64,000 bases of DNA from a bacterium (GTDB lineage: Bacteria; CLD3; SB21): the NCBI GenBank assembly GCA_013360215.1, contig JABWCP010000004.1:62001-126000 (forward strand), given 5' to 3'. The notes under the pieces were generated by a model. It was not told where the DNA came from and did not search any database. It worked only from the letters and a program-made list of their open reading frames with translations. Positions 6,278 through 39,328 of the stretch are shown piece by piece; position 1 is the stretch's first letter, and the number at the start of each line of letters is the position of its first letter. The translations under genes were made by a program, and so were the position numbers.

Positions 6278-9049
6278 TTATGATATCGGTTGAAGTTGAA
6301 GTTCAAAAGGCATGAGTTGAGCTGCGCTATCCATCTTGATGCGGGCGTATTCGATGATTTCCTGATTTTCGAGCGACTGCTCTTTTAGACCGTCTGCTGC
6401 GATGACATACTTATTCGTCGCTAAAGCTTCTTTGATAAATGTCATTGAACTGAATGTTTCAGACAAAATACTGCTGAGCGTTATCAAATAAAACTGACGG
6501 TACAATTCGGATTTGCCGAGCGCTTCGATTTCATTTCGCGCACTTTTGAGGTAATCAGGAAATTTCCCGGGTTCGATCGTATACGTTTTTTCCGCTTCTT
6601 CTCCGGTTTCCGGATCGATCATCGGTTTTCCGTTTTTGTCTTTTTTGATCACCTTGACATCAATTTTTCCATACGTACCGGCAAAAGCCTTTTGTAAGAT
6701 ATCATGAAGCGGCAATGGTTCACGTTGTGCCGCTACACCGAGATCGGCACGCAGCCTTTCGACAAGCTGCCGCACACCCAACTCAACGCGCAACTCATTG
6801 GACCGCAGTTTAGTCGATGAATAACTTAATAAAGCCACGGCTTCATCGGACAGTCCGAGCGCTTTTTGATAAAACGCCGTTTCATCTTTTATGGTACGAT
6901 TGACAAAACCGAGCAACTGCTCTCGGGCGTCTACTTGTTTACGCAGGGTGGACACGTCTATGTTTTCACGCGCTTCTTTGTATTCGTATTGTTCAAGAAT
7001 ACGATTGGGGTCAATATTTTTTATACCGCGTAAAAGTTCCGTCTGTGTCATTTTGATCAGCGGACGTTTACCTTTACGGCGCAATTCGTGCACCTCCATA
7101 TCCCAACCGGACGCAACAAACTGAGCAACGAGAATACTCCGCACTTTTTCATACTTACCATAATAGCCAGCGGCAAACTTTCCTTCGCTTTCCAGTTCTC
7201 GTTTTTCCCGATCTTCTTCATTAGAAACAACGTCGAGAAACTTGTCATCAATGATCTTATAAACTTTCTGTCGCAATTCGGTACGTGCAACATCAATCTC
7301 TTCTTGCGTATGTTCTCTTTTGTAGATGTAATCAAAGAGAATCTGATCATCCAAAAGACGGAGTGCTTGGGCTAATTCGCGATTATTGAGATAGTGATAC
7401 AAAATGATCCATTGTTCTTCAAACGGACGACTTTTAAGCGGTGTTTGTTTTTCCTTTTCGGGCACAACTGCGTTTTGTTTATCAAACCCGTTATAATACA
7501 ACGTCTCACGGTCGGTGTGTGAACCGTCAAACTCATACCGAAGTTTTTTGATTTCCTGAAACAATGTCAGACGGCGCGTAAAGCTGTAGGTCAGCGAAAG
7601 ACGGCCTGCAAGTACTTTGATCAATTGATCCGAAACGATGTCGCCCAGTTCGTGCACCAAAAGTGCGGCCACATAAAACGACATGAGCGCGGAGGCGTGA
7701 CGTTTTTCAGCGGCACGCTCGATAAACATTTCGTGAATAAGAGGGAAGTCCGTCTGATCCGTAAGATACGCCCGGAAAAGATCGTGAACACGTTCAAACC
7801 CTTCCAAGGACGCCGTATTGCTCATCATACGATTAAAAACAAAACGCACTTCAAGATCAGGTACGCGCGCGCGATATTGCGCAGGAAGATTTTGCATCAC
7901 CTTGTCGCTGTTGATCGTCTCAATATCAAGCTTGATTTCCCGGCAAAACATTTCAACAACCGCTTCATCCACTTCGACGTTATTTTTGACGGCGCCAAGC
8001 AGTTTTCCGAACGCGTACATTACATAATGTTTCATTTTCGGTGAATACGAGCGCACAATGTCCAACGTTTTTTCAAAAAGCGATACCGTTTTCGTATCGG
8101 TCATTATTTTGAAAAGACGACGTTCGTCAAAATAATAGTAGATCAATCCCTCAAGCTCTTCGTACGCGGTAAGTTCACGCACAATGGCGTTTTGTGCGTT
8201 TTCGCTCAACGATTCGCCTTTTTGCTGTTGAACGATCTGCAACGTTTTTTGAATTTCCGTTTTTAAAGATTTATCGGCGTCTTGTATTTCTTTCGTCAAT
8301 TCTGCATTGGCCTGAAGCGACTTGGTAAAATCATAAAGATCGGGCAGTACGGTTTCGGATTCACCCACTTCTTTGAGACGATCATATAAGAAATCTACGA
8401 CGTAGTCTGAAAAGCCATATGTTTCAACCGCATCACGAATAATAGACTTAAAAAAAACAGGATACACATCGGTATCCAGATCTAATTTACCGCCCCATCC
8501 GTCATGCACTTTTTTATAACCGGCGAGATATATTTTATCTGCAAAATGCGCAAAGTGATGCATCAGATTAACCATCGCACCGACATCGTTCTTTTTACTG
8601 ATAAATGCGGCATAGAGCGAAATCACACGCATAAAGCGATCAACGTCGTCATCCGCATCAAGAAACGGCTGGAACACCGAAAAAATGGAACGCGCTACCT
8701 GCACTTGATCATCAATAAAGTGGGATGGAGATGCCAACTCAATTTCTTTACCGCGAAACCAAAATTCATCAACGTCGGAAACCGCGTGACCGTGCTGTAA
8801 CATGAGATCAAACACCTTCATATACAGCACGCGTTGGGTGATAAAAAGCGAAGGCAACGAATCGTACCCTTTACGGATATTCCCGCTTTCCTCAAGTGTG
8901 ATAAGGATATTCATCAACGCTTTGAAAGCCGGTTTTGCATTCGCATCGCTTATACCGATGCGTTCAGTAAGCTGCGCTATATAGTCTTCATAAATGGTTT
9001 TGACCTGATCGTCAACACCGACGGTCAGGATATGCTTAATATCTATCAT
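6278..9049 (-). CDS. Large protein of unknown function, coupled to an acyl-CoA synthetase gene
   Basis: I do not recognise this 923-residue protein. It has no signal peptide, no clear membrane segment, no P-loop and no Cys/His metal cluster. The sequence is charged and looks mainly alpha-helical, with Lys/Glu-rich segments around residues 240-300 that may form a coiled coil. The region near residues 820-845 has a DKNGKPMIDPETGEE-like hydrophilic turn. Its ATG overlaps the TGA of the acyl-CoA synthetase (ATGA at 9046-9049), which implies translational coupling, and the first peptide-binding lipoprotein starts 11 bases after its stop. The genomic context therefore suggests a cytoplasmic partner in fatty-acid activation or lipid handling, but this is inference only. 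The frame is long and undisturbed, so it is surely a real gene. Confidence 0.85.
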   Translation of the reverse strand: MIDIKHILTVGVDDQVKTIYEDYIAQLTERIGISDANAKPAFKALMNILITLEESGNIRKGYDSLPSLFITQRVLYMKVFDLMLQHGHAVSDVDEFWFRGKEIELASPSHFIDDQVQVARSIFSVFQPFLDADDDVDRFMRVISLYAAFISKKNDVGAMVNLMHHFAHFADKIYLAGYKKVHDGWGGKLDLDTDVYPVFFKSIIRDAVETYGFSDYVVDFLYDRLKEVGESETVLPDLYDFTKSLQANAELTKEIQDADKSLKTEIQKTLQIVQQQKGESLSENAQNAIVRELTAYEELEGLIYYYFDERRLFKIMTDTKTVSLFEKTLDIVRSYSPKMKHYVMYAFGKLLGAVKNNVEVDEAVVEMFCREIKLDIETINSDKVMQNLPAQYRARVPDLEVRFVFNRMMSNTASLEGFERVHDLFRAYLTDQTDFPLIHEMFIERAAEKRHASALMSFYVAALLVHELGDIVSDQLIKVLAGRLSLTYSFTRRLTLFQEIKKLRYEFDGSHTDRETLYYNGFDKQNAVVPEKEKQTPLKSRPFEEQWIILYHYLNNRELAQALRLLDDQILFDYIYKREHTQEEIDVARTELRQKVYKIIDDKFLDVVSNEEDREKRELESEGKFAAGYYGKYEKVRSILVAQFVASGWDMEVHELRRKGKRPLIKMTQTELLRGIKNIDPNRILEQYEYKEARENIDVSTLRKQVDAREQLLGFVNRTIKDETAFYQKALGLSDEAVALLSYSSTKLRSNELRVELGVRQLVERLRADLGVAAQREPLPLHDILQKAFAGTYGKIDVKVIKKDKNGKPMIDPETGEEAEKTYTIEPGKFPDYLKSARNEIEALGKSELYRQFYLITLSSILSETFSSMTFIKEALATNKYVIAADGLKEQSLENQEIIEYARIKMDSAAQLMPFELQLQPIS

Positions 9050-36578: not shown

Positions 36579-39275
36579 ATGGAATACCTTCCGTCTTCTA
36601 AGAATCCGATTCATTCTCAGCGCCGTCGAGGAAAATTTTATGATGTGAGTGATATCTTGGCTCAAAAACCTTCGACGATCTCCGGAGAAGATATACAGTT
36701 TTTTGAAGAACTTGATCTTGTGTACCGCACAATGTGTGGGATTCTCTATAATTTTGTACCTTTATCCGGCCATCCTGGTGGAAGTCTGTCCAGTGGACGT
36801 ATCGTTGAGGGTCTTTTATACCAATCCATGGACTACGATTTTTCCAAGCCGGATATCGATATCAACGACATGATTTGCTACACTGCCGGCCATAAAGCCA
36901 TGGGGTTGTATGCCATGTGGGCGTTACGCAATGAGTTAATTCGCATAGCCAATCCCGGAATGCTTGCCCCCGAACGCCGTCAATTGCGCCTTGAAGATCT
37001 TTTAGGTTTTCGTAAAAACCCGACGCAAGGTACGCCATTATTTGAAAAATTTAAATCGGTTTCACTGGATGGCCATCCGTCATGCATTGTTCCTTTTGTG
37101 AAAACGGCAACCGGTCCTAGTGGTGTTGGCGTACCTGCGGCATTCGGTCTTGCTTTTGGTGCACTGGACATGTACCCCGAAAATCCTCCCCGTACACATT
37201 TACTCGAAGGAGAAGGCGGCATGACACCGGGTCGTGTTTATGAAGCTATAGCCGCAGCCGCTTCCGCTCAGCTTCGTAATGCGGTTTTACACATTGATTG
37301 GAATCAATCAACGATTGATTCAGACCGATGCACCGCTGAAGGTGATAAACACGGCGACTACGTACAGTGGGATCCTGTTGAACTCATGTATCTTAATGAC
37401 TGGAATGTTATTTTTGTACCCGAAGGCCACAATTATCATCAGGTACTCACGGCTCAAAAAATTGCTCTATCTCTCCAATCCGATATGCCTACAGCCATCG
37501 TGTATCGCACGGTCAAAGGTTATACCTATGGCGTCACCGGTAAAGCTTCACATGGTGCCGGTTATAAATTTTGTTCGCCTGAGTTTTATAATTTCATCAA
37601 ACCCTTTGAAGAACAATTTGGTGTGATGTTTCCTCGTTTTGCCGGCGATGCAAAAAACCCTGTGGATGTTGAAACCTTTTATTGGAATACGCTTTTAGTA
37701 ATTCGTGAAGTGCTTGAAAAAAATTCTTTTTTACCGCAAGAAGCTGCCAAACGCCTTGCCTTATCTCAAGATCGTCTATACTCTCATAGCCGTACCCACC
37801 GCGCACATGCGCCAAAGCTAGCCAATATTTATGACGGCACAGTCAACTTAAGCGCAATGCCTGACGATATTCGTTTGGAGCCGGGAACATCCACCACCAT
37901 TCGCGGACAAGTAGGTAAAGTTCTTAATTATCTTAACAAAAAATCAAATGGCGCCTTAGTAGCAACGGCCGCCGATCTTTTCGAATCAACAAGCATTGCG
38001 GCTGTTGGAAAAGGATTTTCGGACGGTATGTTTAACGCAAAAACCAATCCGGGTGCACGTTTAGTACCTGTGGGTGGTATTTGTGAAGACGCGATGGGCG
38101 CTTTTATGTCCGGTGTTTCAAGTTATCGTAATCATATCGGCATCAGCGCCTCGTACGCGGCTTTTATTGTCGCGATGGAACACACCGCAGCGCGGTGTCA
38201 TTCGATCGGTCAGCAAAATTATTGGGAACGTACCGGCGAACCGATGCATACATGGATTATGGTCAATGGGCACGCAGGTCCTAAAACCGGAGAAGACGGA
38301 CCGACACATGCCGACCCACAGTGTTTGCAACTTCTATGTGAAGATTTCCCCTCAGGCAAACTTATAACGCTAACACCCTGGTCACCGGACGAAGTGTGGC
38401 CCCTTATGATCGAAGGGCTCATGAAGCGACCCGCCGTGCTTGCACCTTTTGTAACCCGACCCGCCGAGACAGTCCCAGATCGTGTCAAACTCGGATTGGA
38501 TCCAGCGATCGCTGCAGCTAAAGGTGTTTATGCTTTTCGCCGAGCCAATATGAATGCGCGTGAATATCACGGCACCTTGGTACTGCAAGGCTGCGGAGTA
38601 GCCAGTATGTTTATCAATGGAGTTTTGGAAAAAATCGACAAAGCCGGTTTGAACATGAATATTTTTTATGTTGCCAGCACTGAACTTTTCAAACTCCTTC
38701 CTGAAAAGGAACAGGAGGCTATTTTTCCGGAACATCTCCGTACCCACGCAATGGGTTTGACAGATTTTACATTGCCTACAATGTATCAGTGGATAAGATG
38801 GAATGAAGGACTTAACCGCACACTGCATCCATTCCGGCATGGACACCACCTTTCTACCGGATCGGCTGAAAAAGTGCTTGAGGAAGCAGGGCTTCACAGC
38901 GAAGGTCAATTCAAAGAAATTATGAAGTACGCACGTATGATCGAAAAGATGAATTTGACTAAACCTCAAACAGATTCAGTTAAAGCTGAAGAAAAGATTA
39001 GATCGAATCGAGGTCGTCAAAAAAGTAAAAAGACTGGAGCGGGTCGTATAAACCATGAAAAACAAACAAAGTTGCAGAGAAAAAACACCGGAACTAAGTC
39101 AAACAAGGGTATAAACCGGAATAAAAAAGCGCCAAATAAAATTACTATCAAACCCGGACCCGGTAGACCAAGAAAAAATAAGCTTGTTCGTCCGATAATA
39201 AAATCACAAAAGTCTAAGAAGAATAAGACGACTAAGAAAATAAAGCCAGGACCAGGAAGGCCAAGAAAAAAATGA
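36579..39275 (+). CDS. Transketolase-like TPP enzyme with a C-terminal AT-hook-like tail
   Basis: An 898-residue thiamine-diphosphate enzyme. Residues 1-800 are transketolase-like: SGHPGGS at 63-69, the EGEGGM...EA TPP/Mg segment at 209-222 with Asn241 in DWNQ, and later a pyrimidine-binding central domain and a C-terminal domain. It should transfer two-carbon ketol units, joining Zwf and Pgl in the pentose phosphate pathway, though a related substrate cannot be excluded. Residues 806-898 form an extra, very Lys/Arg-rich tail with two copies of PGPGRPRK (around 859-866 and 890-897) and RGRQKSKK near 811, which match AT-hook cores. The tail's bases are A-rich and in frame, with no internal stop. 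A terminator follows. Confidence 0.88.
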   Translation: MEYLPSSKNPIHSQRRRGKFYDVSDILAQKPSTISGEDIQFFEELDLVYRTMCGILYNFVPLSGHPGGSLSSGRIVEGLLYQSMDYDFSKPDIDINDMICYTAGHKAMGLYAMWALRNELIRIANPGMLAPERRQLRLEDLLGFRKNPTQGTPLFEKFKSVSLDGHPSCIVPFVKTATGPSGVGVPAAFGLAFGALDMYPENPPRTHLLEGEGGMTPGRVYEAIAAAASAQLRNAVLHIDWNQSTIDSDRCTAEGDKHGDYVQWDPVELMYLNDWNVIFVPEGHNYHQVLTAQKIALSLQSDMPTAIVYRTVKGYTYGVTGKASHGAGYKFCSPEFYNFIKPFEEQFGVMFPRFAGDAKNPVDVETFYWNTLLVIREVLEKNSFLPQEAAKRLALSQDRLYSHSRTHRAHAPKLANIYDGTVNLSAMPDDIRLEPGTSTTIRGQVGKVLNYLNKKSNGALVATAADLFESTSIAAVGKGFSDGMFNAKTNPGARLVPVGGICEDAMGAFMSGVSSYRNHIGISASYAAFIVAMEHTAARCHSIGQQNYWERTGEPMHTWIMVNGHAGPKTGEDGPTHADPQCLQLLCEDFPSGKLITLTPWSPDEVWPLMIEGLMKRPAVLAPFVTRPAETVPDRVKLGLDPAIAAAKGVYAFRRANMNAREYHGTLVLQGCGVASMFINGVLEKIDKAGLNMNIFYVASTELFKLLPEKEQEAIFPEHLRTHAMGLTDFTLPTMYQWIRWNEGLNRTLHPFRHGHHLSTGSAEKVLEEAGLHSEGQFKEIMKYARMIEKMNLTKPQTDSVKAEEKIRSNRGRQKSKKTGAGRINHEKQTKLQRKNTGTKSNKGINRNKKAPNKITIKPGPGRPRKNKLVRPIIKSQKSKKNKTTKKIKPGPGRPRKK

Positions 39276-39294
39276 TAAAAAAACAGCAATAACG

Positions 39295-39328
39295 AAAAGC
39301 CCCGTTAAATTTATTAGCGGGGCTTTTT
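39295..39328. terminator. Rho-independent terminator after the transketolase gene
   Basis: A perfect 10-bp stem AAAAGCCCCG / CGGGGCTTTT with a 13-base loop and T tail on the plus strand. The minus strand also has a T-rich tract after it, so it can also end the DUF2911 transcript. Confidence 0.87.

Follow-up and report, generated by a model that had tools for sequence, protein, structure and literature searches.

The window considered here, a stretch of 64,000 nucleotides from the presumed draft genome of an uncultured bacterium (56 contigs), contains a gene for a transketolase-like enzyme whose frame runs on into a long, strongly basic C-terminus. This raises the questions of whether the tail is a genuine part of the protein, whether it is peculiar to this gene, and what a metabolic enzyme may do with it.

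A divergent transketolase and its basic tail

The gene is a single intact frame (36579-39275, + strand) with an ATG start, 898 amino acids and no internal stops. Its core (36579-38969, + strand; about residues 1-797) has both the TPP-binding N-terminal and the pyrimidine-binding domains of transketolases: PF00456 (Transketolase_N) matches above its cut-off (E 3e-12), PF02779 (pyrimidine-binding domain) matches more weakly, significantly but below cut-off (E 1e-4), and the fold agrees. The core is modelled by AlphaFold with high pLDDT, and its best PDB matches in Foldseek are all transketolases (E ~1e-34, TM ~0.8 on target length), as are the best solved structures by sequence. Cofactor- and acceptor-site motifs are kept (SGHPG, GEG...DWNQ, GICEDAM and GEDGPTH) and align with those of the canonical enzyme as SGHPG, G-E/D-G...N, GI(C/R)E and GEDGPTH. 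Judged by its sequence, the window enzyme is related to transketolase and is not an equivalog (115.8 bits against a cut-off of 488 in the NCBIfam transketolase equivalog test). While it shares the fold and catalytic motifs of this TPP enzyme, it is a divergent paralogue of the canonical transketolases, to which it is ~17-27% identical, with a core ~130 residues longer.

An earlier note on this DNA had described an in-frame basic extension after a full-length transketolase-like enzyme, with 93 residues at 38994-39272, two copies of PGPGRPRK and one RGRQKSKK. The extension and its motifs are all where they were reported, but its start moves ~25 bases upstream to ~38970, because homologues end near residue 794-800, so that the tail comprises ~100 residues (38970-39272, + strand; about residues 798-898). 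It holds RGRQKSKK (39009-39032, + strand) and two copies of IKPGPGRPRK (39147-39176 and 39240-39269, + strand), whose PGPGRPRK parts lie at 39153-39176 and 39246-39269. Like a histone-H1-like tail, it is Lys-rich, acid-poor and predicted to be disordered (the prediction covers the window tail only), with pLDDT <50 at residues 797-804 and 808-898 and ~30 over the tail. The frame ends in TGA (39273-39275, + strand), followed by an in-frame TAA and, ~20 bases 3' of the stop, by a terminator-like hairpin ending in a T-run (39294-39328, + strand; 15 pairs, -22 kcal/mol, z -5.7), which a simple consensus scan for terminators missed. Opposite the tail lies an antisense ORF of 90 aa (39017-39289, - strand) that seems to be a side effect of Lys-rich coding on the other strand.

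In the nearest relative, G001, which belongs to another genus, the orthologue is 73% identical, and its frame continues at the corresponding position into a Lys-rich tail of 26 residues (KPAGSGASKKKSRPTSKKKIARKKVK). The earlier note had reckoned with a spurious tail, to be recognised by its absence from every close relative together with signs of a frameshift or misassembly near 38990. We rejected such an error: the ORF shows one open frame and no sign of a frameshift, the other + frames hold stops, and G001 is tailed, although G002, G003 and G005 are tailless. With the in-frame Lys-rich tail in G001 and the hairpin 3' of the stop, the tail does not appear, on the evidence here, to be an assembly artefact.

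The open frame over 38973-39272 was kept in 0.125% of 20,000 dinucleotide shuffles, and an open frame with at least 37 K+R arose in 0.015% of them. The two IKPGPGRPRK copies differ at 6/30 bases, all synonymous (P ~1e-4 under random substitution), and therefore the repeat peptide is either constrained or was made twice. The 24-base pattern for PGPGRPRK occurs at two places in the whole genome, both in the window tail. Two other readings were discarded. Mobile or shared DNA was rejected on the absence of a plasmid match and of a second copy of the tail peptide elsewhere in the genome, and GRPRK was rejected as a genome-wide motif because its coding pattern matched only 4 times, compared with 7 times for the reversed control; the two matches outside the window tail fall in no ORF that reads GRP.

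Among homologues of the divergent enzyme the tail is lineage-specific: Lys-rich but short in G001, it is missing by alignment from the G002, G003 and G005 orthologues (two further genera). It is thus not essential for the window enzyme. The G006 orthologue is truncated at a contig edge. A single-sequence scan of genome contigs gave 0 matches, and an alignment scan gave 80 loci, with relatives of the enzyme in Krumholzibacteriia, Elusimicrobia, Gemmatimonadetes, KSB1 and others; none of the homologues read had a Lys-rich tail like the window's. The KSB1 homologue (L033, KSB1 bacterium MAG_5) has a different extension near 6350-6643, which is cysteine-rich, ~75-85 aa long and zinc-ribbon-like, with CxxC pairs.

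Lysine-rich tails on other soluble proteins

Among the 359 ORFs of a first 464-kb sample, the window enzyme and the canonical transketolase had the C-terminal 60-mers richest in K/R. The survey was extended to 2.76 of the 3.72 Mb (74%) with mechanically called ORFs, using a Lys-rich 40-mer (K+R at least 40% and K at least 25%), a threshold set after seeing the first sample. Of 2,237 ORFs with a length of 100 aa or more, 15 contained such a 40-mer; in 14 it was terminal or nearly so, and in one it was internal.

By Pfam, the tailed ORFs are mostly enzymes. C-terminal tails are found on the canonical transketolase (716 aa, tail ~50 aa; L124:14453-16603, G000:C6, + strand), on the TCA enzymes aconitase (L286:8851-11319, - strand; Pfam) and succinyl-CoA synthetase alpha (SucD; L287:19387-19998, - strand; partial frame), and on a circularly permuted ATP-grasp protein (Pfam). 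They are also found on 3-hydroxyanthranilate dioxygenase (3-HAO; L208:9770-10390, + strand) and a putative cyclase (L213:13711-14415, - strand) of PF04199, a family that includes kynurenine formamidases; the last two possibly serve one pathway. The window tail is the longest C-terminal case seen. N-terminal extensions are carried by phosphoglucomutase/phosphomannomutase (PMM; L270:8525-10162, - strand), an LMW phosphatase (LMW-PTP; L286:14159-14998, + strand), the ribosome silencing factor RsfS (long; L220:10520-11254, - strand) and a hybrid histidine kinase (L285:5316-7526, - strand), and a glyoxalase-like protein and two short unassigned proteins have Lys-rich N-terminal stretches. No classic DNA-binding protein was recognised in the tailed set from these 2.76 Mb. 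Homologous two-subunit transketolase/dehydrogenase-like proteins of the same genome are not among the Lys-rich ORFs, and the tail was on that ground rejected as a general feature of all transketolase-like proteins.

The earlier note had remarked that a metabolic enzyme able to bind DNA or RNA, or tethered to the nucleoid, would be unusual. Tethering is a sensible reading, but the tail is no one-off. Because the canonical transketolase and other soluble proteins have comparable Lys-rich extensions, what calls for explanation is a cationic tail shared across the lineage, and the window tail is one instance of it.

Retention of the tails within the family

The canonical transketolase has a Lys-rich extension of 34-52 aa in 7/7 family genomes (4 genera) and in 0/21 outside genomes. 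Their Lys residues number 10-21 and their acidic residues 0-1; AAA and AAG codons are mixed, and the third-position GC of 0.34-0.67 is ordinary, so that mere A-rich DNA was rejected as their source. For the other proteins, tail extents in relatives were derived from alignment positions and frame lengths, partly with concatenated queries, and are not sequence readings: alignments reach into the Lys extensions of the aconitase, SucD, PMM, LMW-PTP and RsfS orthologues across the family, and into those of the cyclase and the ATP-grasp protein in 2/3 other genera each, while that of 3-HAO appears confined to this genome. In G008, which is of the same class but another family, the SucD frame has a length of 293 (341-364 in the family) and the aconitase frame 755 (785-828 in the family), approximately the lengths of the cores alone. 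A literature search for Lys-rich tails on transketolase found nothing relevant.

What the tails may bind

We tentatively favour, as plausible though short of probable, the reading that the tails are cationic disordered tethers that would keep enzymes bound to a polyanion, with nucleoid DNA the likeliest one; binding is inferred here from sequence. The evidence we count for it comprises the K/R-rich C-termini of the two transketolases, the 15-ORF set, the 7/7 retention, the acid-poor composition of the canonical tails at ordinary third-position GC, the alignments into the Lys extensions of the five other proteins together with the shorter G008 frames, the protein-level constraint on the window repeats, and the precedents. 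The window tail would then be a disordered cationic tether with a composition like that of a histone-H1 tail, belonging to the Lys-rich extensions that have been added to the ends of a few soluble proteins in this bacterial family, among them the central-metabolism enzymes aconitase, succinyl-CoA synthetase alpha, phosphoglucomutase and both full-length transketolases. The folded enzyme would work as usual while its tail held it electrostatically, and enzymes of different folds might thereby be concentrated in one place. A slight preference for the minor groove may come in addition from the two PGPGRPRK repeats of the window enzyme. DNA is favoured as the partner because of the precedents discussed below (AlgP/PhaF, HupB/TopA and yeast aconitase). 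Specificity for DNA is unlikely because the tails differ in sequence, and polyphosphate, RNA or membrane would attract the same tails. A bolder version, which we consider doubtful, is that interchangeable Lys-rich tails at the termini serve as a localisation tag, by which selected central-metabolism enzymes with unrelated folds are brought together on the chromosome or another polyanion, forming a metabolic compartment that has no shell.

The main rival, also rather unlikely, is that the tails bind polyphosphate, so that the enzymes collect on polyphosphate granules or are regulated by polyphosphate in starvation. A polyphosphate kinase gene (PPK; PF02503, E 5e-59) is present, which is weak evidence as PPK is widespread. 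Lys-rich disordered regions bind polyphosphate in E. coli (PMC12345225), and the H1-like AlgP associates with polyphosphate granules (PMC9239181). Two tailed proteins, SucD and LMW-PTP, are among the only 10 of 2,355 proteins that contain a PASK segment (a 20-residue stretch of which D, E, S and K make up 75% or more), but the tails of the window enzyme and the canonical transketolase do not.

Ribosomal proteins typically have Lys-rich tails, and a binding of RNA or ribosomes by the tails, coupling the enzymes to translation or storing them in RNA condensates, would fit this likeness. It would also fit RsfS, for which alignments reach into the long N-terminal extension in 6/6 relatives. Since most tailed proteins are unlinked to ribosomes, we consider this improbable.

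Equally, there is little likelihood that the extensions are near-neutral, that is, Lys-rich low-complexity sequence generated through loss of stop codons and expansion of repeats, and tolerated without a specific partner. The lineage-specific window tail, the fast divergence of tail sequences, and the 3-HAO, cyclase and ATP-grasp tails, which come and go among genera, are what such drift would leave. It is at odds with the canonical transketolase, which keeps its extension in all 4 genera while outside genomes lack one, and whose tails have almost no acidic residues although AAA/AAG are one step from GAA/GAG, and with the solely synonymous differences between the window repeats.

A true AT-hook module, which would make the enzyme a moonlighting protein with sequence-directed DNA binding as first proposed, is very unlikely. 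An AT-hook has a GRP core with basic flanks, and its RGR enters the minor groove (PMC11354804). The AT-hook likeness drawn by the earlier note holds for the GRP core and its flanks: KPGPGRPRK occurs twice, each GRP being followed by RK and preceded within a few residues by K and P, and the repeats are constrained at the protein level. It does not extend to a standard AT-hook. While the repeated GRP core followed by basic residues is likewise found in AT-hook proteins (PF02178; HMGA, bacterial WhiB7), these have RGRP where both window repeats have PGRP, and the sole RGR of the tail sits in RGRQKSKK, without P. A search with Pfam AT_hook at E <= 10 came up empty against both the tail and the complete genome, and the tails of the G001 orthologue and the canonical transketolase contain no GRP. 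Because of the missing arginine, the silent profile and the sister tails that lack GRP, we did not class the window tail as an AT-hook, though the two repeats may act in an AT-hook-like way.

Comparison with known systems

DNA-binding Lys-rich tails are already known from bacterial chromatin proteins. If the conserved set of cationic tails positions enzymes, core metabolism would be sited on the nucleoid or on polyphosphate in a bacterium. Such tethers would offer a simple, testable system in which to ask why metabolic enzymes occur in nucleoids, yeast mitochondria being a known case, and could themselves serve as natural tags for co-localising enzymes.

Among the closest counterparts are the KPAA domains of AlgP and PhaF of Pseudomonas, which, as here, are long, disordered, histone-H1-like C-terminal tails rich in Lys, Pro and Ala; DNA binding has been reported for them, and they are believed to anchor granules to the nucleoid (PMC9239181). 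AlgP and PhaF are, however, granule-associated proteins and not enzymes, and the tails here lack KPAA repeats. The HupB tail and the lysine repeats of actinobacterial TopA similarly place a basic C-terminal tail on a conserved core and raise DNA affinity or processivity (PMC5676037, PMC7398561), but those cores already bind DNA, whereas the cores here are metabolic enzymes. For PASK-type lysine binding of polyphosphate, the likeness is that of Lys-rich disordered segments binding a polyanion (PMC12345225), while PASK's content of acidic residues and serine is missing from most of our tails. Finally, the part of the literature on yeast mitochondrial aconitase (Aco1) seen here describes this TCA enzyme as a nucleoid protein with a role in DNA maintenance, and reports no Lys-rich tail as its means of binding DNA (PMC7463775); aconitase is also among the tailed proteins of this genome.
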